Program-made: the position numbers and the translations under genes
From: Aquabacterium sp.
GTDB taxonomy: Bacteria; Pseudomonadota; Gammaproteobacteria; Burkholderiales; Burkholderiaceae_C
DNA: 46,242 nt
Reading direction: 5' to 3'
Assembly (NCBI RefSeq): GCF_021768455.1
Contig: NZ_JAIZVX010000013.1
Location: 1-46,242 of the forward strand
Shown: piece after piece, positions 4,136 to 19,639 of the stretch
How positions within the stretch are numbered: position 1 is the stretch's first letter
Layout of the letters: each line of letters starts with the position of its first letter
Notes under the pieces: model-generated
Told to the model about the DNA's origin: nothing
The model's input: the letters and a program-made list of their open reading frames with translations, nothing else
Databases searched by the model: none

Positions 4136-4993
4136 TCAGTCCTTGAACTGCGGCACCTGCCTGGCCATCGAGGCCATCATGGCCGCCATCAGGTCGCCTG
4201 ACATCAGCATCGCCGCATTCCAGGTGGCCACATGGTTGAGCCCATCGGCCACGCTGTGGTCGCGGGCGTAGTTCAGCATCTCCTTGGTGCCCCGGATGCT
4301 CAGGGGCGACTTGGCCGCGATGCTGGCCGCCACCTCGCGCACCCCGGCCCGCAGGGCCTCGCGGTCGCCGAACACCCGGTTGACCAGGCCGATCTCGCGC
4401 GCCTCGGCCGCGTCCACCCGGCGCCCCGTGTAGGCCAGCTCGCGCACCATGCCCTGGCCGCCCAGCAGCTTGGGCAGCCGCTGCAGCGTGCCCACGTCGG
4501 CCACCATGCCGATGTCGATCTCCTTGATCGAGAAACTGGCATCGGCCGAGGCATAGCGCATGTCGGTGCAGGCAATCAGGTCGATGCCCCCGCCCACGCA
4601 CGCACCGTGGATGGCCGCCAGCACCGGCTTGCGGCACCGTTCGATGCTGCTGAGCGTGTCCTGCAGGTCCAGGATCAGACGCCGCAGCTTCTCGCGCATG
4701 CGGCCATCGCACTCGTCCTTGATCTGCGCCTGCAGGCCCATCATCAAGCTGAGGTCGATGCCCGAGGTGAAGTGCTTGCCCACCCCTTCGATGATGGCCA
4801 CGCGTGCCTGCGGCGTGGCATCCACCCACACCATGGCCGTGCGGATCTCCTGCCACATCGGGCCGTTCATGGCATTGGCTTTGTCCGGTCGGTTCAGCGT
4901 GACGGTGGCGATGCCATCGGCCAGGGTCAGGCGCAAGGTCTCCAGCGCAGGCGGCACCGGGCTCTCGGCAAGGTCGTGGGTGGGGTGGCTCAT
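4136..4993 (-). CDS. Crotonase-family protein, probable delta(3,5)-delta(2,4)-dienoyl-CoA isomerase
   Basis: This 285-residue enoyl-CoA hydratase/isomerase superfamily protein has the oxyanion-hole segments KANAMNG (38-44) and FTSGIDLS (75-82), and GGGIDL at 134-139. The acidic residues D138, E158 (KEID) and D166 (VADVGTLQRLPK) have the spacing 20 and 8 of the catalytic Asp176/Glu196/Asp204 of rat ECH1, and the surrounding segment closely resembles that enzyme. Such enzymes convert 3,5-dienoyl-CoA, formed when fatty acids with odd-position double bonds are oxidised, to 2,4-dienoyl-CoA. That product is the substrate of FadH, which is encoded 32 bases upstream on the same strand. The residue match and the neighbour support each other. 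A plain enoyl-CoA hydratase is less likely because of the residue pattern. Confidence 0.85.
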   Translation of the reverse strand: MSHPTHDLAESPVPPALETLRLTLADGIATVTLNRPDKANAMNGPMWQEIRTAMVWVDATPQARVAIIEGVGKHFTSGIDLSLMMGLQAQIKDECDGRMREKLRRLILDLQDTLSSIERCRKPVLAAIHGACVGGGIDLIACTDMRYASADASFSIKEIDIGMVADVGTLQRLPKLLGGQGMVRELAYTGRRVDAAEAREIGLVNRVFGDREALRAGVREVAASIAAKSPLSIRGTKEMLNYARDHSVADGLNHVATWNAAMLMSGDLMAAMMASMARQVPQFKD

Positions 4994-5025
4994 GGTGTGA
5001 TCCTCATCGTGCGAAGACAGGCGGC

Positions 5026-7722
<2,697 letters not shown>

Positions 7723-7728
7723 GCGCGC

Positions 7729-8541
7729 TCACCACCAGGGCCGTGCGGCATCGGGGTCTGCCCAGCGCCAGCCCAGCGATCGCAGGGGCAAGCCCAGGTC
7801 CAGCTGGGTGATCAGCAGGTCCACCGGCTGCACAGGCCCCAGCAGGGCAAAGTTCACCTGCTGCACCAGTTGGGCGCTCACCTCTGCGCGCACCCTGGGC
7901 CGCACCACCATCTGCGCCTTCAGGGGCACAGGCAGGTGATCCGGCCACTGGCCGCTGACCACCATGTCCAGCGCCACGGGCACCTGGGTCTTCACCGGCA
8001 CGGCCATATCGATCGGCAGGCTCATGGCCACCGGCACCTTCACCGTGAACGCTGGCAACCAGGACAGCAAGCCGTCAAAACGAAACGGCAGGCTCACCTC
8101 GGTCTGCACCGGCACCACCTGCCGCACCGCCACCACCGTGTCCACCGGCAGGCTGGCCTGCAGCTGGACACGCGCCGTGAGGCTGTCCTGCAGCCGCACG
8201 TCCAGCACCTGGTCCACGGTCACGGGGATGCGGGGGCGGATGTCGATCGGCGTGCGCAAGGGCGCCACCACCTCGGCACGAGCCAGCAGGCCTTCAGGCA
8301 GGGTCAGCGAGAGCGGCTGATGGCGCAACAGCAGGCGGGTCTCCCAGTGCTGCCAGAACGCCCAGCCCCCGGCAACCATGGCCAGCAGCCACAGCCCTAG
8401 CACCACCAGGCTCACCCCCAGCAACTGCGCCCGGCTGATGGGGCGGTGCCAGCCTTTGAGCGGGGTTGACGTCCAGGACGAGGCCTCGGGTGACGACACC
8501 GCTGACAGCGCAGTCACCGCGCCCCTCACAGCGCCGTTCAC
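7729..8541 (-). CDS. Membrane-anchored beta-repeat protein, second of a coupled pair (unknown function)
   Basis: I do not recognise a family. From the GTG at 8541 the protein has 270 residues: a short cytoplasmic N-terminus, one membrane helix (LLGVSLVVLGLWLLAMVAGG, about residues 35-55), then about 200 residues of short alternating hydrophobic/polar stretches rich in Val and Pro (VPVxxxxPV, IPVTVDQVLDVRL, LPVDTVVAV, VPVQTEVSLP, VPVALDMVV). This predicts beta strands with a period of about 18-20 residues. The GTG overlaps the stop of the upstream gene as GTGA, which suggests coupling. A second GTG at 8517 has GAGGGG four bases before it and is an alternative start. The design matches the upstream gene product, so the pair probably arose by duplication. 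Confidence 0.75.
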   Translation of the reverse strand: MNGAVRGAVTALSAVSSPEASSWTSTPLKGWHRPISRAQLLGVSLVVLGLWLLAMVAGGWAFWQHWETRLLLRHQPLSLTLPEGLLARAEVVAPLRTPIDIRPRIPVTVDQVLDVRLQDSLTARVQLQASLPVDTVVAVRQVVPVQTEVSLPFRFDGLLSWLPAFTVKVPVAMSLPIDMAVPVKTQVPVALDMVVSGQWPDHLPVPLKAQMVVRPRVRAEVSAQLVQQVNFALLGPVQPVDLLITQLDLGLPLRSLGWRWADPDAARPWW

Positions 8542-9341
8542 CGCGACCCCGCCGATGCGGGCCCCGCCACCGCCTGCGACACGCTCAACGCCCGGAACGG
8601 CAGGGTCACGTCCATGCGTGCCAGCCCCGCCCTCACCTGCTGCTGCGGGAAGGTCAAGGTCGCAGCGACCGGGGCGGTCACCGGCAGCGACAGCTGTGCC
8701 CGGATGGGCACCTCGGTGTCGATCACCGTGTCGATCTGCGCACGCAGTGGCTCGCTCAGGCGCACCGTGGCAGGCGTGTTCAACACCACCGGCAGCCGGT
8801 GACGAATGGGAATGACCACGTCCAGCGGCACGTCTGCCCTGATCGGCACCTGGCCGCGCACCGGCAGGTTCAGCGCAATACCCAGCACCCTGGTCTGCAC
8901 CGTGGTGTCCAGGCTCACTGTCTGGTCGACGTGAAGGGTGTGTTTCACCGGCACGTCCAGGTTCACCGGCACCGTGGTGTCGATGCTCACCTGAAGCGGA
9001 ATGGCCTCGCTCAACGGGATGCTCAGCGTCTGCTGAATGGGCACGCGCACCGGCAGGCGCTGGTCCACCTTGACTTGCACGTTCTGCGTCACGGCCGCGC
9101 GCACCGCCATGGTCGGCGGCAGCAGCACATCGACCGCCTGGGCCTTGATCTGGGCATGCGCCGCCAGGTGCGTCCAGGCCCACCAGGCCACCGCGGCGGC
9201 CGAGGCACTCATCAGCCCCAACAAGACCAGCGAGGTCAGCACCAGGGCACGCCAGGTCACGGGCCGTCCCGGCGCCGCCATCACCGTGGCAGACCAGCGC
9301 TGCGGGGGGGCGGGCACGACAGGGGGCGGCTTGGGCGACAT
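8538..9341 (-). CDS. Membrane-anchored beta-repeat protein, first of a coupled pair (unknown function)
   Basis: No family is recognised. The protein has 267 residues from the ATG at 9341; a GTG directly before it is a possible alternative. A Pro-rich cytoplasmic N-terminus (1-30) is followed by one membrane helix (ALVLTSLVLLGLMSASAAAVAWWAW). About 190 residues with repeats of about 18 residues follow, each with alternating Val/Ile/Leu and a Pro, such as LPVRVPIQQTL, IPLQVSIDTTV and VPVKHTLHVDQTV. The topology suggests a periplasmic beta-rich, possibly solenoid or groove-like, domain tethered to the inner membrane. Its stop overlaps the GTG of the downstream paralogue. Nothing in the flanks (a PadR gene and the small Cys-rich gene) reveals the role. 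Confidence 0.8.
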   Translation of the reverse strand: MSPKPPPVVPAPPQRWSATVMAAPGRPVTWRALVLTSLVLLGLMSASAAAVAWWAWTHLAAHAQIKAQAVDVLLPPTMAVRAAVTQNVQVKVDQRLPVRVPIQQTLSIPLSEAIPLQVSIDTTVPVNLDVPVKHTLHVDQTVSLDTTVQTRVLGIALNLPVRGQVPIRADVPLDVVIPIRHRLPVVLNTPATVRLSEPLRAQIDTVIDTEVPIRAQLSLPVTAPVAATLTFPQQQVRAGLARMDVTLPFRALSVSQAVAGPASAGSR

Positions 9342-9495
9342 CACCGAACGACTATGCCACGCCGCTTCGTTATCATCCGCCCCTGAACACCCTCGCGCCG
9401 CGCGATGTTCCCTGAGTCCCTGAGGGGTTTCAACTGACTCAGGGCATCAGGGCGCGGCACACCCTGCCCCGCCCTCACTGCCCCGCGCTGCCCCG

Positions 9496-9760: not shown

Positions 9761-12526
9761 TCAGGACACCTTGAACTTGAACTTGCCGTCCTTGCCCGCA
9801 CTGACCTTGATCTTCTGAATCGGCTGACCTTCGGCCATGCGCGCCAGCACGCTGTCGGCCACCTCGGGCAGCAGGCTGCCATTGAGGATGTGGTCCACGG
9901 CGCGGGCACCGGTGTCCACCTCGGTACAGCGCGCCAGCACGGTCTCGACCAGCGCCTCGTCGTAGTCCAGCACCGCCTTGTGGTTGGCCAGTACGCGCGC
10001 CGCGATGCGGTCGAGCTTGAGCTTGATCACGCTGACCAGCACGTCGTCGCTCAGCGGGTAGTACGGCACCACCTTGGTCCGGCCGATGAACGCCGGCTTG
10101 AAGGCCTTGTAGAGCGCAGGGCGCAGGGCCTCGGCCAGTTCATCGGCCTCGGGCAACTCGGCGGGCGACTTCATCACCGACCCACCGGCCTCTTGGTCGT
10201 GGCGGAAGCAGGCCTGCATGATCTGCTGTGACGCCACGTTCGAGGTCAGGATGATCACCGTGTTGCGGAAGTCGATCTCACGGCCTTCGGCATCGTCCAT
10301 CAGGCCCTTGTCGAAGACCTGGAAGAACATCTCCAGCACATCGGGGTGCGCCTTTTCCACCTCGTCGAGCAGCACCACGCTGTAGGGCTTGCGGCGCACG
10401 GCCTCCGTGAGCACGCCGCCTTCGCCATACCCCACATAGCCCGGGGGCGAGCCCTTGAGGCCGCTCACGCTGTGCGCCTCCTGGTACTCGCTCATGTTGA
10501 TGGTGATCAGGTTGCGCTCACCGCCATAGAGGATGTCGGCCAGGGCCAGCGCGGTTTCGGTCTTGCCCACGCCACTGGGGCCGGCGAACAGGAAGACACC
10601 CTTGGGCTTGTTCGGGTCTTCCAGGCCTGCACGCGCCGTGCGCACACGCTGGGCAATCGCCGCCAGAGCGTGGTCCTGCCCGATCACGCGCTCCTGCAGC
10701 GTGGCCTGCAGGTTGCGCACCGTCTTGATCTCGTCCTTGACCATCTTGCCGAGGGGGATGCCCGTCCAGGAGGACACGATCTCGGCCACCACCAGGCCAT
10801 CGACCTGCATGGGCACCAACGGCGCTTCGCCCTGTAGTGCCGCCAACTCGGCCTGTTTGCCAGCCAACAGCTCGTGCTCCGGGCTGGCGTGTGTGACCAT
10901 CCCCTTCTTCTTGCCCTTGGACACAGGCTTGGTGCCGCCTTCACCTGAGCTGACCTCGGCCGTCGACAGCCCCCCGGCTTGCTGCTCCAGCTTCTCACGC
11001 AACGCCTTGATGTCCAGCACCAGTTGCTGCTCGAAGGTCCAGCGGGCTTCATCGGCCTTGAGCACCGCTTCAACCTTGTCGCGCAGCACCTTCAGCTCAT
11101 CCAGGCGCTCACCATGGCGCGCCCCCGCGGCCGCTTCGCGCTGCAGCGCAGCAGCCTCGGCATCCAGGCGTTCCAGGCGCTTGCGGGCCTCTTCAATGCG
11201 GGCGGGTGTCGCGCTCTGGCCCAAGGCCACCTTGGCACAGGCGGTGTCCAGCACGCTGATGGCCTTGTCCGGCAACTGGCGACCACTGATGTAGCGCGCA
11301 GACAGGCGCACGGCCTCCGAGATCGCCTCGTCATACAGGCGCACGCCAAAGTGCTTCTCCATCAGGGGCGCCATGCCACGCAGCATCGCACAAGCCAGCT
11401 CCTCGCTGGGCTCCTCCACCTTGATGACCTGGAAGCGGCGGGCCAGGGCCGCGTCCTTCTCGAAATACTTTTTGTACTCACCCCAGGTGGTGGCGGCGAT
11501 GGTGCGCAACTCACCGCGGGCCAAGGCCGGCTTGAGCAGGTTGGCCGCATCGTTCTGACCAGCCTGCCCGCCCGCGCCGATCATGGTGTGCGCCTCGTCG
11601 ATGAACAGGATGATCGGGTGCGGGCTCTTCTTCACCTCGTCGATGACGTTTTTCAGGCGGTTCTCGAACTCGCCCTTCACCGAGGCGCCGGCCTGCAGCA
11701 GGCCCATGTCCAGCACATGGATGGCCACACCCTGCAGCGGCGCAGGCACATCGCCCTGTGCCACGCGCAGCGCCAGCCCTTCCACCACCGCCGTCTTGCC
11801 CACACCGGCCTCGCCGGTCAGGATGGGGTTGTTCTGGCGGCGGCGCATCAGGATGTCGATGGCCTGGCGGATCTCCGCATCACGCCCGATCACCGGGTCC
11901 ACCTTGCCATCCAGCGCGCGCTGCGTGAGGTTGGTCGTGAACTGGTCGAGCGCCGGCGTCTGGCCGCTCAGTGTCTGGGCCGCATCGCCGCCCTCGGCTT
12001 CACCCTCGTCAGCCTCGGCGGGCGCATCCGCATCGCGCACCGACTGCACAGCCTCGACCGAACCCTTGGTCAGCTCCGGCAGCTTGTGCTTGAGCTCATC
12101 CAGACGGAAGCGGGCAAACACCTTGGACGAACGATGGGCCAGCTGACTCAGCGTCGGCTCTGTCAGCAGCGCCAGCAGCACGTGGGCGCTGCGGATGCGC
12201 GCAGTGTGCGAACCCAGGGAAGCGATCAGCCAGGCATGCTCCAGCAGCACCGGCAGGTGCTCGGAAAACACCGGCGTGCGGGCGTTGCCCGTCTTGAAGC
12301 GGCTCAGCTCGGTCTCCAGGTCGCGCTGCAATTCGGTGAGCGACACCCCAAAGCGCTGCGCCAGCACCGCCATGTCGCTCTGCGGCTGCTCCAGCAGCGC
12401 CAGCATGAAGTGCTCGAGATCCACCTCGTAATGGCCACGGCCCATGCACAGGCTGGCCGCACGCTCGGCGGCCTTGCGGGTCAGGTCATTGAGTTTGGAG
12501 ATCAAGGTTTTGAGGTTTTGGCTCAT
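9761..12526 (-). CDS. tssH: T6SS AAA+ ATPase ClpV (TssH)
   Basis: ClpV disassembles the contracted TssB/TssC sheath so that its subunits can be reused. The 921 residues fit the family. The Clp N-terminal repeat domain is at about 10-150 and is followed by an acidic linker (165-185). The first AAA+ module has Walker A GEAGVGKT (238-245) and the Walker B-like FIDEAHT (308-314). A helical middle domain runs about 440-570, and the second AAA+ module has GPSGVGKT (649-656) and a later LLDEVEKAH. The middle segment holds a lysine-rich stretch SKGKKKG (536-542). It is the last gene of the minus-strand T6SS set, 110 bases after tssG. Confidence 0.97.
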
Positions 12527-12636
12527 GGTGATGACAGCGTGACGGGTTGGTCGGTCTTGTTGTTTTGAAAATCAAGGGGGGCCGAGGTGTGGCAACCTCA
12601 AAGGAAGGCATACAAGGCTCGGTCTGTGCGGACACG

Positions 12637-13719
12637 CTAGGCTGCGGCGTGGATGTCGTAACGCACATCGGCGCGGTCGTCGTTCGCTGGCAGGGTTTGC
12701 AAGAAGGTGTCCCACCCAAGGCGGCCCGTGGCGGGCAAACGCTCGGATGCCAGTTCGCAGCCCCGCACATCAGACTGCGTCAACTTGAGCTGGACCTCGT
12801 ACTCCAGGCTCACACCGCCCATGACGGTCAACAGTTCCTTCAAGGCCAAGGCACCTTTGCCGCCGGGCAGAAACCGCTGAAAACGTTGGTGATTCAAGGG
12901 CCCCAACACCACGCGCATGCGCAGATCACGTTGCCAGACGCGATCACCCAGCATGGCGGAGCGGCCCAGGACGGCATGGGTGCCGCCACGGTCATCACGC
13001 ACACCCAGATGGGCTTTGCCGGACTCGGGCAACTGGTACCAGCGCCCCACAAACTGGTCGATCTGAACCGGCACGTTCAAATACCCCTGCAGCACCTGCT
13101 GCAGTTGCCTGGCTGACATGGTGCGTTGCTGAAGGGCGCCCGCAAAAAAGGCCAACGCTTCATCGGGCACACCTCCTTGGTCACCACTCAAGCGGTTTCT
13201 CAACGCCTTGTGCCCAAGCCCGCCCAGAGCCAGAACCATCGGCAAAAATTGGTTTTCTCGGTCTGCCTCGTACTGCATCGGCAAGCGGTGCTTGCGCCAT
13301 GCCTGATAGAACAAAGAAACCGAGCGACTGCTGAACACGTCCATGAAGGCGCGTGCCGCATAGTCCTTCTGGTACAACTCCCCCTGCACCAGGGACTCGG
13401 TGTAAAACAAGGGCAGGGTCCCATTTGCCCCCAGGAAGCCCATGAAAGAAGGCGTGACGTCAACCTTGTCCACGGCAGCCGCCTGACGCGCGCCAGGCAG
13501 GTCACGCCAATGCACGGTCAAAGATTCCACCTCGCTTGGCGGGAAGGACAGCGCCATCGAATTGCGGAAATGAATGCGTGACAGGGCATGGGGTGCCCCG
13601 TCAGCCGAGGCCATCCACCGATCCAGGAGTCGAACCGCCTGAAAGAACCCGAACTGCTGCGGATCCTGCAGCAGCCTGTCGATCACAGGAGTGGCAAATC
13701 GCCGTTGCGCGGTGGGCAT
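12637..13719 (-). CDS. tssG: T6SS baseplate protein TssG
   Basis: TssG is a baseplate wedge subunit that works with TssE, TssF and TssK. The protein has 360 residues from the ATG at 13719, which is preceded by a strong GAGGAGG. The longer open frame to 14079 lies inside tssF and is not used. Family features are VIDRLLQDPQQFGFFQAVRLLDR near the N-terminus, the FRNSMALSFPPSEV segment, and the FMGFLGANGTLPLFYTE core. It overlaps the end of tssF by 37 bases, so translation is probably coupled. Confidence 0.95.
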   Translation of the reverse strand: MPTAQRRFATPVIDRLLQDPQQFGFFQAVRLLDRWMASADGAPHALSRIHFRNSMALSFPPSEVESLTVHWRDLPGARQAAAVDKVDVTPSFMGFLGANGTLPLFYTESLVQGELYQKDYAARAFMDVFSSRSVSLFYQAWRKHRLPMQYEADRENQFLPMVLALGGLGHKALRNRLSGDQGGVPDEALAFFAGALQQRTMSARQLQQVLQGYLNVPVQIDQFVGRWYQLPESGKAHLGVRDDRGGTHAVLGRSAMLGDRVWQRDLRMRVVLGPLNHQRFQRFLPGGKGALALKELLTVMGGVSLEYEVQLKLTQSDVRGCELASERLPATGRLGWDTFLQTLPANDDRADVRYDIHAAA

Positions 13720-15632
13720 CTCAGCACCTCCTCTTGGGTTTGGGCCGAAACGATGGTCAGTTTGCTGAAGCTGTTGGCCTGCACATACAGCCCAAAAAAG
13801 TGGTCCATGACCGTCGCGAACACGCCCAGACCTGCGCCGACAAAGCCCGTCTCGTCCACCGTCAGACGCACCTCGGTGCCACGCACAAACGAAGCAAATG
13901 GCTCCCCAGCCAGCCAGGCCGTGGCGGGCCTGAATTCGACGGCCACCAGACCGTCGATTTGCCGTCGATTGCTGGCACTGCGGGGCAGGTCGTACAGCCG
14001 CAACATCTCCTTCAGCGCATCGATGCCCCCCGCAGACAGCGACAAATGGTTGAGCGACAGGTGAGAAATCAGCCGCCACAAAGTGCCGCCGCCTTCTTCA
14101 AAGCGACGCGTCAACGTCGGCTTTTTCAACAACCGAATCTCTTTCGCCGCACCCCCGCCATCCATGAACAGATCTCCTCCAGGCACACCAAATGGCAGCA
14201 AAGAGGGCAGATCTCGGTTCGTGGCGCGGACCCTGAGCGACAGGGTGTCGACATTTGGAGCCGTCGGGTCAAAGTTGATGTCAACGATGGACAGCTCCAC
14301 CTCGTACCCGGGGCTGGCTGCGGCCACATCCTCGTCGCGTCTCGCCGACCAATAGCGTCCCGCCATGCGCGCTTGGCCCGCGGCATCTCTGGCACCGAGG
14401 TGCGCGATTTCCGCATCGCCCGCCTCACCATCGAGCGCATCCACCAACCCGTCATCGTGACGCAAGGAGAAAAAGGGCCGGAACTCCTGAACCGACTCTC
14501 CTTGTGGCCCCTGCTGGACCCGGAAAACACGGTCAATCGCGTAAACCTCGTAGGCGTAGGCGCGGCGTGCGTCCACCAATACCGGGTAAGCCGAAACCGT
14601 GTGACTGACACGAATCGGCTCCGCCGCTTGCTCAAACAGGTTGGCCACCGGCGTACAACCCAGCAGAAAATTTCGCTCGTTCACCGCCTCGAGGAGGTGG
14701 GACTCGGTGGAATCCGCTCTCACGCCACGGATCAACACATGAACCGTCAGACGCCTCAACCCTCCAAGCTTTGCCCCTTCCTTGACCACGGCGGACGAGG
14801 GCAGACGACAAGGCAGATCGACAAAGTTGAATTTGTCAGGGAAGGCGAAGTACTCCAACAAAAGCCGGTAAGCCTCATGCGAACGAGCGTCATGCTCCAA
14901 CAACGCTTCTGAAGGGGCAAACCCGACCGGCTCTGGCATGGCCCACCCCGCATCCGATTCGACGGGCAGCCAGACCCCATGCGCATCGGTCTGGACCATC
15001 ACGCCCGCGGCCCGGTGACACAGGACTTCCCTCAAGACACTGGATTGCGACGGCTCTCCATCAAGATAGAAACGAAGAGGCCTTTCCAGCAGGGCGCTCC
15101 AATCGGTCTTGCTGGACTGGGATTCGATGACCAGGGACAAAACCGATGTCACACCCTGGGGCAGCCGTGTGCCATCGGGCGCTGTCACCGCCGAACGGTA
15201 GGCGGCAGAAACCACCGTCAGGGGCAACAGTTGAACGTCCTGACTGGTGCTGAATCGGCACGGGACATTTTTCACCGGCCGTGAAGCCAACACCGTGCCA
15301 CGCGGGACCTCCGCCCCCCGGCCCATCTGGGCCGTCGTCCCCAGATGAAACTGGGCGATGGAACAAGATGGAAACGGCCTCAGGTAATGAGGGTACAGAA
15401 CCTCCAGCATCCCCCCGGTAAACAAGGAAAAGTCGTCATCAAGACGCTTGTGAACACGGGCAGACAGGAGCGCACAAGACTCGATCAAGCGCTCGACGTG
15501 GGGATCGGACGACATGTCCCCCCCAAGCGCCAGCCGCGAGGCGATCTTGGGGAACTCTTTGGCAAAGCGCCCCCCCTGCTCACGCAACTGGGTCAGCTCT
15601 CGCTCAAAATAGGGCAACAAACTCTGGGCCAT
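13683..15632 (-). CDS. tssF: T6SS baseplate protein TssF
   Basis: This is the largest wedge component of the T6SS baseplate. From the ATG at 15632 it has 649 residues and begins SLLPYFERELTQLREQGGRF, the conserved TssF start, followed by FAKEFPKIASRLALGG and DPHVERLIES. A TTG at 15644 that overlaps the tssE stop is an alternative, adding four residues. The central and C-terminal parts carry family segments such as FNFVDLPCRLP and SANRRQIDGLVAVEFRPA. The gene lies eight bases after tssE and overlaps tssG. Confidence 0.95.
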   Translation of the reverse strand: MAQSLLPYFERELTQLREQGGRFAKEFPKIASRLALGGDMSSDPHVERLIESCALLSARVHKRLDDDFSLFTGGMLEVLYPHYLRPFPSCSIAQFHLGTTAQMGRGAEVPRGTVLASRPVKNVPCRFSTSQDVQLLPLTVVSAAYRSAVTAPDGTRLPQGVTSVLSLVIESQSSKTDWSALLERPLRFYLDGEPSQSSVLREVLCHRAAGVMVQTDAHGVWLPVESDAGWAMPEPVGFAPSEALLEHDARSHEAYRLLLEYFAFPDKFNFVDLPCRLPSSAVVKEGAKLGGLRRLTVHVLIRGVRADSTESHLLEAVNERNFLLGCTPVANLFEQAAEPIRVSHTVSAYPVLVDARRAYAYEVYAIDRVFRVQQGPQGESVQEFRPFFSLRHDDGLVDALDGEAGDAEIAHLGARDAAGQARMAGRYWSARRDEDVAAASPGYEVELSIVDINFDPTAPNVDTLSLRVRATNRDLPSLLPFGVPGGDLFMDGGGAAKEIRLLKKPTLTRRFEEGGGTLWRLISHLSLNHLSLSAGGIDALKEMLRLYDLPRSASNRRQIDGLVAVEFRPATAWLAGEPFASFVRGTEVRLTVDETGFVGAGLGVFATVMDHFFGLYVQANSFSKLTIVSAQTQEEVLRCPPRNGDLPLL

Positions 15633-15640
15633 GAATGGAT

Positions 15641-16078
15641 TCAACGCTCAATGTGGTACTGCTGCCGCACGGTGGTCAGGGTGGTGTTGAACGACACGGG
15701 CTCCAGCGAGTCCGGCATGACGAGCACAGCCTGAATCGCAAAATTGACGCGCTTGCCAGCGTCACCGAAACCCAGCAAGCGAACCGACACGTCTTTCAGC
15801 CGAGGCTCGTGGCGGGCAATCGCCTGGGTGATCGAAGCGATCAGGGCATCGCAATCCTTTTGGGCCGTGAGGTTCAACCCAATCACATCCTTGATGCCAA
15901 ATGACCCCAGGCGCCCCAAGCCAGCCTCTTCAGGTGCCGACTTCGAATTGAGCACATGCTCAAGGTCACGGGCAACGGACGCCACGAAGAAGGATCTGCT
16001 GCATCGCCCCTGGGGCACATCCCGGTCTGATCCGATCAACCGGTCCCAGATGGATGGCGTGAACTGCAATTCGGACAT
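15641..16078 (-). CDS. tssE: T6SS baseplate gp25-like protein TssE
   Basis: TssE resembles phage T4 gp25 and nucleates the sheath at the baseplate. It has 145 residues from the ATG at 16078. Visible family features are SIWDRLIG near the N-terminus, VARDLEHVLNSK (gp25 proteins carry an EPR-like segment near here), GIKDVIGLNL, and a C-terminal gp25 fold ending in FNTTLTTVRQQYHIE. The start codon comes directly after the T-run of a hairpin terminator that follows hcp, and I see no clear Shine-Dalgarno. Its expression therefore probably depends on readthrough. Confidence 0.92.
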   Translation of the reverse strand: MSELQFTPSIWDRLIGSDRDVPQGRCSRSFFVASVARDLEHVLNSKSAPEEAGLGRLGSFGIKDVIGLNLTAQKDCDALIASITQAIARHEPRLKDVSVRLLGFGDAGKRVNFAIQAVLVMPDSLEPVSFNTTLTTVRQQYHIER

Positions 16079-16079
16079 G

Positions 16080-16104
16080 AAAAAAGGCGGCCAGAGGCCG
16101 CCTG
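16080..16104 (-). terminator. Rho-independent terminator after hcp
   Basis: On the minus strand an eight-base stem AGGCGGCC/GGCCGCCT with a three-base loop (arms at 16086-16093 and 16097-16104) is followed by seven T. It lies 10 bases after the hcp stop and one base before the tssE start codon. It would separate abundant hcp message from the low-abundance baseplate genes. Confidence 0.85.
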
Positions 16105-16113
16105 GTACTTGCT

Positions 16114-16659
16114 TTAGAAACTGGTGTCGTTTTTCTTGAGGTTCCAGGAACCCACGGCACCCGTGGCCGTCGTGCCATCCACCTTGGCCGTGGTGTAAGT
16201 CCACTTCACGGCGCTGTACTTGAGCCCAAACGTCTCAGTGGGCAATTCACCCTCGCCCACATTGGTCGTCACCGACGAAACCACGACGTCTTTCAACTCG
16301 ATCTTCAGGTAGTTGACCCGAGTCTTGCTGGTGCCCGTGTTGTTGCTCGTGGAGGTTGTGTTCACACCACCCAATGAGCGGTAGAAATAGATCACCACGG
16401 TGTTGTAGTAGGTGCCAGCCGACGAGGCCTGCCACAGCTTGGGCGACGCGTTGTCGATGTCCTTGGTGAAAATCATTTCACCGTGTTCGGTGCGCTCTGC
16501 GGTATGACCGCCAGCAGAAGACGCCGTGGAAGACTTCGGCTGGTAAATCTTGTGCGCCCAGGTCGACACCTCGATCGCCTTTTCAGTGGCGTGCTTCGAA
16601 TCGGTGGTGTCGCCTTTGATGTCCGCGCTGGTCGGAAAAACGACGTAAATATCCTTCAT
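16114..16659 (-). CDS. hcp: T6SS tube protein Hcp (TssD)
   Basis: Hcp forms the inner tube that is fired from the cell and can carry effectors. At 181 residues it is somewhat longer than the usual 155-172. Family features are MKDIYVVFP, the GEMIFTKDIDNASPKLWQA segment and LKIELKDVVVSSV. An unusual Ser/Thr/Asn-rich stretch NTTSTSNNTGTSKT lies at 100-113 between two strands, and a second Ser-rich patch SSTASSAGG at about 43-51. A good GGAGAGG ribosome site precedes the ATG. The gene sits between tssC and a terminator. A dedicated effector fused to Hcp is not seen. Confidence 0.95.
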   Translation of the reverse strand: MKDIYVVFPTSADIKGDTTDSKHATEKAIEVSTWAHKIYQPKSSTASSAGGHTAERTEHGEMIFTKDIDNASPKLWQASSAGTYYNTVVIYFYRSLGGVNTTSTSNNTGTSKTRVNYLKIELKDVVVSSVTTNVGEGELPTETFGLKYSAVKWTYTTAKVDGTTATGAVGSWNLKKNDTSF

Positions 16660-16680
16660 GAACCTCTCCAGATTGAATGA

Positions 16681-18162
16681 TTAACCCTTGCCACCCGATG
16701 GCAACTCGGCCACTAGACGCAGGGACACAGAAAGCTCGTCCAGCTGGAAATGCGGCCGGACAAAAGCCACTGCACGGTACACGCCAGGCTTACCAGGAAC
16801 CTCCTGCACTTCGACACTCGCGTCACGCAAGGGGTACTCGGCCTTGGTCGCTTGTGACGCACTTTCATCGGTGGTCACATATTGGGAGATCCATCGATTC
16901 AAGAAATTCTGAATGTCGATGGCGGAGGTGAACGAACCCACCTTGTCTCGCATCATCGCCTTCAGGTAATGCGAAATACGGCAAACCGCAAACATGTACT
17001 GCAGCTGCGCGGACAAGATCGCATTGGCATTGGCCGCATCCGAATCGTATTTCTTCGGCTTTTGCACAGATTGCGCGCCAAAGAAGGCTGCGTAATCCGT
17101 GTTCTTGCAATGAACCAAGGGGATGAAGCCCAAATCACTGAGCTCCTTTTCACGGCGATCGGTGATGGAGATCTCCGTTGGACACTTCAGCGCGATTTCA
17201 CCGTCATCGGTCTTGAACGTGTGCGCGGGCAGATCCTCGACGAGCCCTCCACCCTCCACGCCACGAATGGCTGCGCACCAGCCATAGCGCTCGAACGCCT
17301 CGGTCAACCGCGCACCCAATGCATAAGCCGTGTTGACCCAGAGGTAACGGGAGTGGTCTGTGCCGTCGGTCTGCTCGACAAACGCAAAGCCGTCTGTTGT
17401 CAAACCATCTTTCGGATTGAAGGGCAAGCGCCCGAGGAAGCGCGGCACGGTGAGCGCGACATAACGCGAGTCCTCTGACTCCCGGAAGGATTTCCACTTC
17501 GCATACTCCACCGTATCGAACACCTTGGCCAGGTCTCGCGGCTTGCCCAGATCGGAAAAGCCTTCGAGGCCAAACAGATCGGGGGACGCAGCGGTGAGGA
17601 ACGGCGCATGCGCAGCCGCCGAAATGTGCGACATCTGCTCGATGAAGTACATGTCCTCCGCACCACGACCAATGTCGAAGTCCCCGACGATCGCACCAAA
17701 GGGTGCGCCACCGAAGGTCCCGAACTCTTCCTCGTAGACCTTCTTGAAGATGGCGGACTGGTCAAAGTCGATCGCCGTCTTGAAGTCTCGGACGACTTCC
17801 TTCTTGGTGACGTTCAGAACCTTGATCTTCAGCCGTTCGCCGGTTGAGGTGTGCTTGGCCAGGTAGTGAAGGCCCGTCCAGGACGACTCCAGTTTCTGGA
17901 ACTCTGGCGCGTGCATCACTTCACTGAGTTGCGTCGAGATCAGTGCATCGATCTCGGCGATCCGAGCGTCGATCGTCGCGGCCAGGTTGTCGGACAGCAC
18001 CACCGTGCCTTCCAAAACTTCCTTGACCAACTCACTGATCAAGTCTTTGGCGCGCGTGTGCTCAACGTGTGTTTTGGCGACCTTGCTTTTGGCAACGATG
18101 TCATCCAGCAAAGACACCGACTCGGTCAAGGTGCCAGGGGTGGGCTGCAGTTGTGCGCTCAT
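16681..18162 (-). CDS. tssC: T6SS sheath large subunit TssC (VipB)
   Basis: TssC makes up most of the contractile sheath together with TssB. The 493 residues match the family. Recognisable segments are the N-terminal helix, LESSWTGLHYLAKHT, FGAIVGDFDIGRGAEDM, PRFLGRLPF, GFAFVEQTDGTDHSRYLWVNTAYALGARL and the conserved C-terminal YMFAVCRISHYLKAMMRDK with FLNRWISQYV. It starts three bases after tssB and is followed 21 bases later by hcp, so the order tssB-tssC-hcp is the standard one. Confidence 0.97.
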   Translation of the reverse strand: MSAQLQPTPGTLTESVSLLDDIVAKSKVAKTHVEHTRAKDLISELVKEVLEGTVVLSDNLAATIDARIAEIDALISTQLSEVMHAPEFQKLESSWTGLHYLAKHTSTGERLKIKVLNVTKKEVVRDFKTAIDFDQSAIFKKVYEEEFGTFGGAPFGAIVGDFDIGRGAEDMYFIEQMSHISAAAHAPFLTAASPDLFGLEGFSDLGKPRDLAKVFDTVEYAKWKSFRESEDSRYVALTVPRFLGRLPFNPKDGLTTDGFAFVEQTDGTDHSRYLWVNTAYALGARLTEAFERYGWCAAIRGVEGGGLVEDLPAHTFKTDDGEIALKCPTEISITDRREKELSDLGFIPLVHCKNTDYAAFFGAQSVQKPKKYDSDAANANAILSAQLQYMFAVCRISHYLKAMMRDKVGSFTSAIDIQNFLNRWISQYVTTDESASQATKAEYPLRDASVEVQEVPGKPGVYRAVAFVRPHFQLDELSVSLRLVAELPSGGKG

Positions 18163-18165
18163 GAT

Positions 18166-18684
18166 TCACTCCTTGTCGCCCTGGGCGGCTTCTTCGCCCA
18201 GCTGCTTCAACTTCTCGGTGTTTCCGAGCACCTCGGCCAGGACGTCTTCCAGCTTCTCGCTGCCGGCCAGCTTGTTCCGAAGGTCCGACAGCTTGGTGCG
18301 GGCCTCCAGCAGCTTCCGCAATGGCTCGACCTGCTCGACCACGGCTTCTGGGCGGAAGTCGTCCATCTTGTTGAAATTCAGGTTGACCGCAAACTCGCCG
18401 CCATCCGCACTCAGCTTGTTGGCCACGCGGTAAGAAGCGCGCGGTGCGACCCCTTCCATCACGTCATCGAAATTGTCGAGATCGATGTTGACGAACTTGC
18501 GGTCCTTGAGTCGGGACTGAGGCTTGTCAGGATCAGGCTGCCCCGTGAAATCACCCATGACGCCCACGACAAAAGGCAGTTCCTTTTGTTCCACGCCATC
18601 ACCGATTTCCACGTCGTATGTCAGCTGGACACGGGGTGCACGCACACGCCCCAGACGCTGTTGAACGCTTTCATTTTTTGCCAT
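18166..18684 (-). CDS. tssB: T6SS sheath small subunit TssB (VipA)
   Basis: This 172-residue sheath protein forms the protomer with TssC. It has the family start SVQQRLGRVRAPRVQLTYDVE, then ELPFVVGVMGDFTGQPD, DRKFVNIDLDNFDDVM, a beta-rich middle, and the C-terminal helix region LRNKLAGSEKLEDVLAEVL used in ClpV-mediated remodelling. The gene lies between a lipoprotein gene (24 bases upstream) and tssC (3 bases downstream). Confidence 0.97.
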   Translation of the reverse strand: MAKNESVQQRLGRVRAPRVQLTYDVEIGDGVEQKELPFVVGVMGDFTGQPDPDKPQSRLKDRKFVNIDLDNFDDVMEGVAPRASYRVANKLSADGGEFAVNLNFNKMDDFRPEAVVEQVEPLRKLLEARTKLSDLRNKLAGSEKLEDVLAEVLGNTEKLKQLGEEAAQGDKE

Positions 18685-18708
18685 GACCGGGTTCCTTCCT
18701 TGAACTGT

Positions 18709-19395
18709 TTACTGCAAAGCACCAAAGGGGTTGTTGCGCCCACTGGTGGCCGGGGCGACATTGCCGCTGGCCGGAGTGGACTTGGCGACGGGCATGGCGG
18801 CTGGTGGGACCGTCGTACCGGGATTGGGGCGAACCATGGGGCGCGGGGCAACGCGGGCGATCGGTGCCTTGGGCTTGCCGCCCCCTTCGCCAGCGGCCGT
18901 GGCAGGAATGATGATCGGCTCGCCCAGGGCCTCTCGGATGATGCGGGCCACGCTCTCGGCTTCGCTGCGGGTCGAGCCCGTCACCTCATTGGCCTTGCGC
19001 AGTTGCTCGAGGGCATCGGCACTCACACGCAGACCGCTCACGGCCAGGATGCTCTTGGCCGTCAGGTCGTTGACATCGCGCTGCAGAACCTCTTGCGACG
19101 AGGTGATCGCCTGACCGTAATGGCGTGCATCGAAGTGGATCTGGGCCTTGCGCAGCCAGGGCTCCTTGCTTGCCGGATCAGCCTGGATGGCCTTGTCGAG
19201 CTGCAGGATGGCCTTCTCGGGCTGACCTTGCTTCTGAGCCAGTTCGGCCGCGGCCAGGCTCTCGTTGAGTTGCTGCTGAGCCGCCAACCTGGCCGCTGCA
19301 TCGTCCTTCTTGGGCGCTGAAGAACAAGCCGCCAGCGCAGCCAACACACCCACCATCACCGCGCAAGACATGCCGCGGCGCACGCTTTCCAGCAT
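18709..19395 (-). CDS. TPR lipoprotein associated with the T6SS
   Basis: From the ATG at 19395 (GGGAG lies upstream) this is a 228-residue lipoprotein. A signal peptide with a lipobox LAAC puts the lipidated Cys at about residue 23. A tetratricopeptide-like helical region follows (NESLAAAELAQKQGQPEKAILQ, ASKEPWLRKAQIHFDARHYGQAI), then a Pro/Ala-rich, low-complexity C-terminal tail of about 55 residues. Lipoproteins of this type sit next to tssB in several betaproteobacterial T6SS clusters; I do not know a proven function. It is the first gene of the minus-strand T6SS set, divergent from tssJ. Confidence 0.8.
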   Translation of the reverse strand: MLESVRRGMSCAVMVGVLAALAACSSAPKKDDAAARLAAQQQLNESLAAAELAQKQGQPEKAILQLDKAIQADPASKEPWLRKAQIHFDARHYGQAITSSQEVLQRDVNDLTAKSILAVSGLRVSADALEQLRKANEVTGSTRSEAESVARIIREALGEPIIIPATAAGEGGGKPKAPIARVAPRPMVRPNPGTTVPPAAMPVAKSTPASGNVAPATSGRNNPFGALQ

Positions 19396-19639
19396 CACGC
19401 TTCACTCCCTGATTGACTTTGTGTTCAGGTCAGACCCGCATCGAGGCGGGCCGACAACTGGGCGGATTAGAGCCGAATTCATTTGCAGCATCTGCCCTCT
19501 TTCGGGGGTGGTTTACAGACTCTTGCATTCGGTTTCAACTGCACCCCACCCAGGGGAGGGATCACCCGTCAGCAGGGGCTCAAACCGTTCTTACACTACG
19601 CGCCGGCGATGGGCGTTGGTCGCTCCGCCCATGACAAGA

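Follow-up and report, generated by a model that had tools for sequence, protein, structure and literature searches.

It has long been asked how water-insoluble molecules get across the periplasm. AsmA-like grooves are made of many antiparallel strands in proteins much larger than those described here, and the AsmA-like proteins YhdP, TamB and YdbH are held to carry phospholipids to the outer membrane. The transenvelope MlaD of Veillonella is an inner-membrane-anchored bridge with a hydrophobic interior, proposed to move lipids (PMC10665443). In Marinobacter, the AupA/AupB pair consists of an outer-membrane FadL-like protein and an inner-membrane partner that co-precipitate, and AupB is proposed to pass alkanes from the outer-membrane channel across the periplasm to the inner membrane (PMC5989066). 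P. putida needs its DUF1302 and DUF1329 proteins for Tween 20, and the two were modelled as a pair for substrate transport (PMC10866462), and a DUF1302/DUF1329 set goes with monoterpene use in Castellaniella (PMC6394551); excerpts of these four reports form the basis of the comparison. Here we analysed two genes, A and B, in a 46,242-nucleotide stretch of Aquabacterium sp. (NCBI RefSeq assembly GCF_021768455.1, contig NZ_JAIZVX010000013.1; hereafter the window). Their products very probably each form a single giant antiparallel beta-hairpin behind one membrane helix.

Like YhdP, TamB and YdbH, A and B appear to combine a single inner-membrane anchor with long amphipathic beta structure; they differ in that one antidiagonal of coupled positions dominates, which corresponds to one hairpin, and in that no repeated multi-strand groove modules were seen. 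No AsmA-type profile occurred among the Pfam matches of A and B (E up to 10) or of 33 A members (E up to 1). Veillonella MlaD, as excerpted, has an MCE domain, an alpha-helical span and a C-terminal barrel and is modelled as a homohexamer (PMC10665443), whereas Pfam and NCBIfam gave no MCE domain for A or B. AupB is a far bigger protein; in the excerpted work 1,920 bp of the gene were replaced (PMC5989066). A Marinobacter plasmid stretch (L129) has a FadL-type gene with a large partner gene beside it, which may be an AupA/AupB-like operon; the A and B profiles had no match on this stretch, where AupB itself was not compared by name. AupB is a precedent for the job, with no sign of kinship in this limited test. 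Systems with DUF1302 and DUF1329 (and resistance-nodulation-division, RND, proteins) share the combination of DUF1302 with LolA-like partners and hydrophobic substrates, and the excerpted descriptions name no single-helix beta-hairpin pair.

A probable long beta-hairpin in two paralogous proteins

Gene A (8538..9344, minus strand) encodes 268 amino acids from GTG at 9344 or 267 from ATG at 9341, the latter start accounting for the length given in the first-pass annotation. Gene B (7729..8541, minus strand) starts with GTG and encodes 270 amino acids. The first-pass annotation had called the genes coupled paralogues overlapping as GTGA, and both parts were borne out: the stop of A and the start of B overlap at 8541-8538, and the products are 28% identical across 247 amino acids (E 7e-18, BLASTP). 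Each protein has, as also noted earlier, a single hydrophobic helix, placed at the hydrophobicity maximum (A residues 34-52, 9189..9245; B residues 40-58, 8368..8424; both minus strand); in A it follows an N-terminal tail and precedes the amphipathic hairpin domain.

Past the helix, about 190 residues of each protein alternate between hydrophobic and polar. The mean 180-degree moment was 2.05 for A and 1.79 for B versus 0.93 (standard deviation 0.11) for shuffles (z 10.6 and 8.1), and the family-averaged alternation stood at z 11.7 (A) and 13.3 (B) over shuffles. Conserved prolines fall in the polar parity, as read from the alternation profile, and in A some of them recur every six residues (161, 167, 173, 179 and 185). 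Family means gave a lag-18 autocorrelation peak of 0.51 for A and 0.56 for B. The alternation faded gradually in A and scarcely weakened in B, whose family mean was still +0.49 at lag 44; such phase coherence is unexpected for ordinary sheets with loops of random length. The first-pass annotation had described a periodic Val/Pro beta-repeat. Its amphipathic alternation with proline stood, being far above chance; its units of 18-20 residues are not the main feature, which is the phase coherence with a single hairpin. In A, one parity is kept to about residue 150 and the opposite parity is found after about 157, with a conserved RVLG motif between.

Covariation gave the register of the pairing. 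Relatives of A and B made up 282 unique rows, and the 269 with <30% gaps (effective number of sequences, Meff, 124.5) were analysed by mean-field direct coupling analysis (DCA), alignment column k being A residue k+33. The antidiagonal with columns i+j=243 dominated (z 12.0 over 93 pairs). Seven of the 10 and 8 of the 20 strongest pairs lay within +/-2 of this sum, a band holding 2.5% of all pairs. Because the row-permutation null was not clean, we used other sums and clade replicates as controls: permutation removed the 243 signal (-6.9 to -8.4), yet it created peaks inside the C-terminal arm, which scored 8.1-8.9 at sums 344-346. The neighbouring sums 241, 245 and 247 scored 5.3, 5.2 and 5.0, the best sum beyond them scored 3.8 (at 235), and sum 243 ranked first in four of the six clade-by-paralogue subsets. 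A hydrophobicity-mirror test separated odd from even sums and did not single out 243 (237 scored best); same-side pairs numbered 57 of 75 at sum 243 and 67 of 75 at sum 245.

The supported pairing joins A residues 74-148 (columns 41-115 on the outgoing side) with 161-235, at least 75 residue pairs. Its fold axis lies between L154 and G155, the latter invariant in 33 rows. This tip (8880..8885), near which the parity of the alternation flips, separates the outgoing arm (residues 74-154, 8883..9125) from the returning arm (residues 155-235, 8640..8882), past which the alternation runs on to about residue 249. In B, the family alignment places the outgoing arm at about residues 80-157 (8071..8304) and the returning arm at about 158-251 (7789..8070); all these features are on the minus strand. 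Register, tip and presence in both paralogues were computed, and the pairing is well supported. Three observations weigh against the hairpin. Aquabacterium sequences alone, a shallow alignment, gave no clear signal at sum 243 (rank 68 of 327 for A and 12 for B; Meff 20 and 24); with Aquabacterium A and B pooled, this sum scored 2.0 and came fourth; and the first 15 columns past the helix (26-40) had no pairing signal. Taken together, the sequence data make a single giant antiparallel hairpin in A and B very probable.

Shape of the ribbon and possible contact between A and B

Pairing detected by covariation says nothing about the straightness of the ribbon, a point against reading the hairpin as an extended span. 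The same hairpin could be wound into a compact double-stranded beta-helix (a jelly-roll-like tube) or a beta-solenoid near the inner membrane. This form would give the same primary antidiagonal, and the lag-18 autocorrelation and the prolines at multiples of six could mark its corners. Winding into a tube would also create a second contact set, and none was seen at the limited depth of the alignment: among sums up to 70 away from 243, those more than 8 columns off it stayed at or below 2.1, and within-arm diagonals reached at most 3.1 and within-arm antidiagonals at most 3.0 versus 12.3 for the main antidiagonal. An 18-residue solenoid, at which the autocorrelation hinted, was not supported by the covariation: coupling at offset 18 averaged 0.06 in the DCA, and the constant one-coil contacts of such a coil were not found. 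The beta-solenoid that the first-pass annotation had named as a supporting outcome thus found no backing. The missing second contact set favours an extended ribbon, which we hold to be fairly probable at this depth, with some room left for winding; a wound hairpin seems improbable.

An extended strand advances about 3.3 A per residue, and the periplasm is 20-25 nm wide. If straight, 75 pairs would span about 245 A, near the width of the periplasm. Arm lengths were measured in 13 of 14 proteins, L180 being excluded because its tip motif was not found. The N- and C-terminal arms differed by at most 15 residues in nine of the 13, and by 18 in Acinetobacter A and in Psm L126. The difference was 35 in L072, which was cut ahead of a masked run, and 47 in Herpetosiphon L181. 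Four distant relatives with one family gene each (L125-L128) have greater length or another shape. In two of them, L127 and L128, each arm has lengthened to about 118-133 residues, and the breaks in the alternation mirror each other across the tip, whose place was judged by eye. This is what a compensated lengthening of the hairpin would look like, and it gives an independent hint.

Coupling between A and B, averaged along diagonals, peaked at offsets -2 and 0 (4.9 and 4.8; 126 paired rows, Meff 55.7). When partners were permuted within three clades, the mean near offset 0 dropped from 2.96 to 0.86-2.05 in 25 of 25 trials. This suggests that A and B may form a parallel, in-register pair. The strongest individual A-B pairs speak against it, being scattered off offset 0, and fine phylogeny may contribute to the coupling.

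Gene neighbourhoods and possible roles

We propose the following arrangement. A and B would be sister inner-membrane proteins, with the short tail taken as cytosolic, one helix, and the rest taken as periplasmic. The periplasmic part would be one very long hairpin with 75 supported pairs and perhaps about 95 residues per arm, one face being hydrophobic and the other polar and proline-studded. The ribbon would stay extended and reach toward the outer membrane; A and B would stand side by side, in register, with their hydrophobic faces together. The greasy A-B face could then let lipids, fatty acids or hydrocarbon-like nutrients pass between the membranes, and in some relatives this passage may work together with a DUF1302 barrel and a LolA-like protein. 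A hydrophobic slide is proposed because of the substrate links of DUF1302/DUF1329 and the AupB precedent. An earlier likeness, drawn in design only, to bridge-like or groove-forming carriers is compatible with the long hairpin and with the outer-membrane-barrel and LolA-like neighbours in related orders; transport itself, like topology and extension, we infer, whereas the pairing is computed. On sequence evidence, an inner-membrane-anchored hairpin pair serving as a hydrophobic conduit between the membranes seems to us evenly poised between right and wrong.

The neighbours were examined in 20 regions, 16 of which (L109-L124) carry the pair or a triplet and come from 13 of the 26 positive Sinimarinibacterium-order genomes and 3 of the 9 positive Acinetobacter-order genomes. 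Neighbours were called by similarity to proteins of L113 and L114, and Pfam names came from a scan of ten proteins. Near the family genes of these 16 loci, DUF445 and Abi_alpha occurred in 16/16 each, DUF1302, which looks like an outer-membrane barrel, in 14/16, and DUF4282 and LolA_like in 11/16 each. DUF1302 was on the strand of the pair in 14 of 14 cases; DUF445 and Abi_alpha, counted by eye, shared this strand in 11/16 and were divergent in 5/16, so that some loci have an operon and others a cluster. In Sinimarinibacterium (L061), DUF1302 lies immediately upstream. The cluster points to a putative envelope system in some lineages, and elsewhere the pair is kept without those neighbours.

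The main rival is a structural strut, in which the same hairpin tethers or spaces the membranes, or holds the outer-membrane barrel, and carries nothing. Hairpin and anchor would suffice for this; the hydrophobic faces may serve only to be buried where A meets B, arm length varies by lineage as in a ruler, and in Acinetobacter and Aquabacterium-type loci the pair persists with no partner genes beside it. A strut hardly explains the LolA-like gene in 11 and DUF1302 in 14 of the 16 loci, or the association of DUF1302 with hydrophobic substrates in the excerpted reports, and we consider it unlikely, though the most serious of the alternatives. Much less likely is an assembly or stability factor for an outer-membrane barrel, as TamB is with TamA. 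In 14 of 16 loci DUF1302 adjoins the pair or lies close to it on the same strand, which would suit this role. Against it, the pair persists in Acinetobacter and Aquabacterium-type loci, where the stretch examined gave no match to the DUF1302 query, and the Pfam matches include no AsmA/TamB-type family.

Several neighbourhoods also weigh against the conduit. The partner queries found no match in L060, L072, five Acinetobacter loci and 26 Aquabacterium-type loci, and DUF445 of this type was found in 0 of 37 genomes of the window's genus (E up to 1e-10). The Aquabacterium-type pair lies downstream of type VI secretion genes, with clpV upstream in 22 of 26 loci (16 of 18 with full flanks). This last arrangement would fit a role in the adjacent type VI secretion system, as an effector or an accessory part. 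Two full-flank loci (L055 and L057), however, keep the pair without a nearby ClpV, TssG or TssC match, and no such match occurred in 25 other loci (three Acinetobacter loci, L060, L061 and L109-L128; E up to 1e-25), so that this role is highly improbable. In the genus Acinetobacter, the pair was present in 32 of 36 genomes with a close DUF445 orthologue versus 37 of 83 without (Fisher 5e-6, uncorrected for phylogeny); DUF445 and the pair were not adjacent in the Acinetobacter loci examined.

A broader form of the conduit is tentative and somewhat doubtful. Paired, sometimes tripled, inner-membrane proteins, each with an extended hairpin of 80-130 residues per arm as its entire periplasmic part, might stand in register, greasy faces together, and form a ribbon-walled slide for hydrophobic molecules up to a DUF1302 barrel, their arm length matched to the thickness of the envelope, as a previously undescribed trans-envelope machine. 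If true, it would be a far simpler bridge than the AsmA-like, Lpt and MCE machines, with a hairpin instead of a folded groove, and would show beta-hairpin folding at an extreme. The DUF445, DUF1302, Abi_alpha and DUF4282 families found beside the pair in some relatives would then gain a concrete, testable role. The lineages that carry the A/B family include many hydrocarbon users.

Upstream of the pair, the window contains a type VI secretion cluster (9761-19401, minus strand), whose genes we take, without a family scan, to be ClpV, TssG, TssF, TssE, Hcp, TssC and TssB. Two metabolic genes lie downstream (4136-7203, minus strand), presumably a FadH-like FMN oxidoreductase and an enoyl-CoA hydratase, named likewise. 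Of 26 Aquabacterium-type loci, 13 have a FadH-type gene close to the pair, and such a gene also lies near a family gene in L127 (by Pfam) and L117; this possible tie to fatty-acid breakdown was not counted as evidence. On the Marinobacter plasmid pHP-187 (L129, 9418-11192), Abi_alpha stands beside a DUF445 match split over two annotated frames, in a stretch with no match to the pair.

Distribution of the family

The A query matched 33 of 61 related genomes, namely 33 of the 37 of the window's genus (its own included) and none of 24 others; a second family match occurred in 32 of the 33 positive same-genus genomes, and because of this conservation A and B look like real genes. Orthologues of A in the other same-genus genomes that have it were 50-63% identical. 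The earlier statement that no named family is recognisable held for everything above cut-off in Pfam, NCBIfam and the PDB sequence profiles. Pfam at E up to 10 gave one match for A (E 0.23) and none for B, with no cut-off reached; NCBIfam gave none for either, and the A and B profiles matched no PDB sequence at E up to 1. Among 33 A members, the most frequent Pfam match was LEA_2 (PF03168; 5/33, best E 0.001), a weak local likeness whose best score of 19.9 bits missed the curated gathering score of 25.4. We judged sub-threshold matches to LEA_2, Bactofilin, a C2 model and the like to be composition-driven. Viral contigs held no relative with A as query, and searches of open-licence PMC papers on the neighbour DUF families and on periplasm-spanning beta-hairpins showed no description of the A/B family among the matches listed.

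A collection of named organisms gave 35 confirmed loci: 18 labelled Aquabacterium, seven labelled Burkholderiales, five from Acinetobacter, one each labelled Leptothrix and Proteobacteria (both of the same type as the Aquabacterium loci), an Oceanospirillaceae metagenome-assembled genome, Sinimarinibacterium and a weak Herpetosiphon match. Aquabacterium commune DSM 11901 has the pair at locus L052. Profile searches were positive in 9 of 293 genomes from the order to which an Acinetobacter genome belongs (five strong, four weak) and in 26 of 85 of the Sinimarinibacterium order, 22 of the 26 with at least two matches and three genomes (G1035, G1037 and G1045) with three adjacent ones. In the Acinetobacter genus sample, 69 of 119 genomes were positive. 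A phylum-wide profile search found 2 of 398 genomes, the window's own included; with profile A5 it found 15 of 398, mostly partial weak matches trusted only for G000 and G445. The distribution is patchy, and the pair is mostly kept together.

Some members depart from the usual pair. Loci L119, L120 and L121 have a tandem of three family genes, not two. Gene B of Sinimarinibacterium (L061, 10684-11889, plus strand) is extended at its C-terminal end; the added part includes a cysteine-rich stretch that weakly resembles DUF6455 (E 0.0053, short of the cut-off). The Herpetosiphon matches (L068, L180 and L181) were too short and weak to be accepted as homologues. At L180 and L181, Herpetosiphon has two short proteins with a hydrophobic helix and, around a turn of GFG or GVG, a similar alternation with proline hexads; they are perhaps short hairpins or a case of convergence. 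In L072, which contains a masked run, a single distant family member (7621-8589, plus strand) is convergent to two genes that, named without a family scan, we take to encode LptG/LptF permeases.
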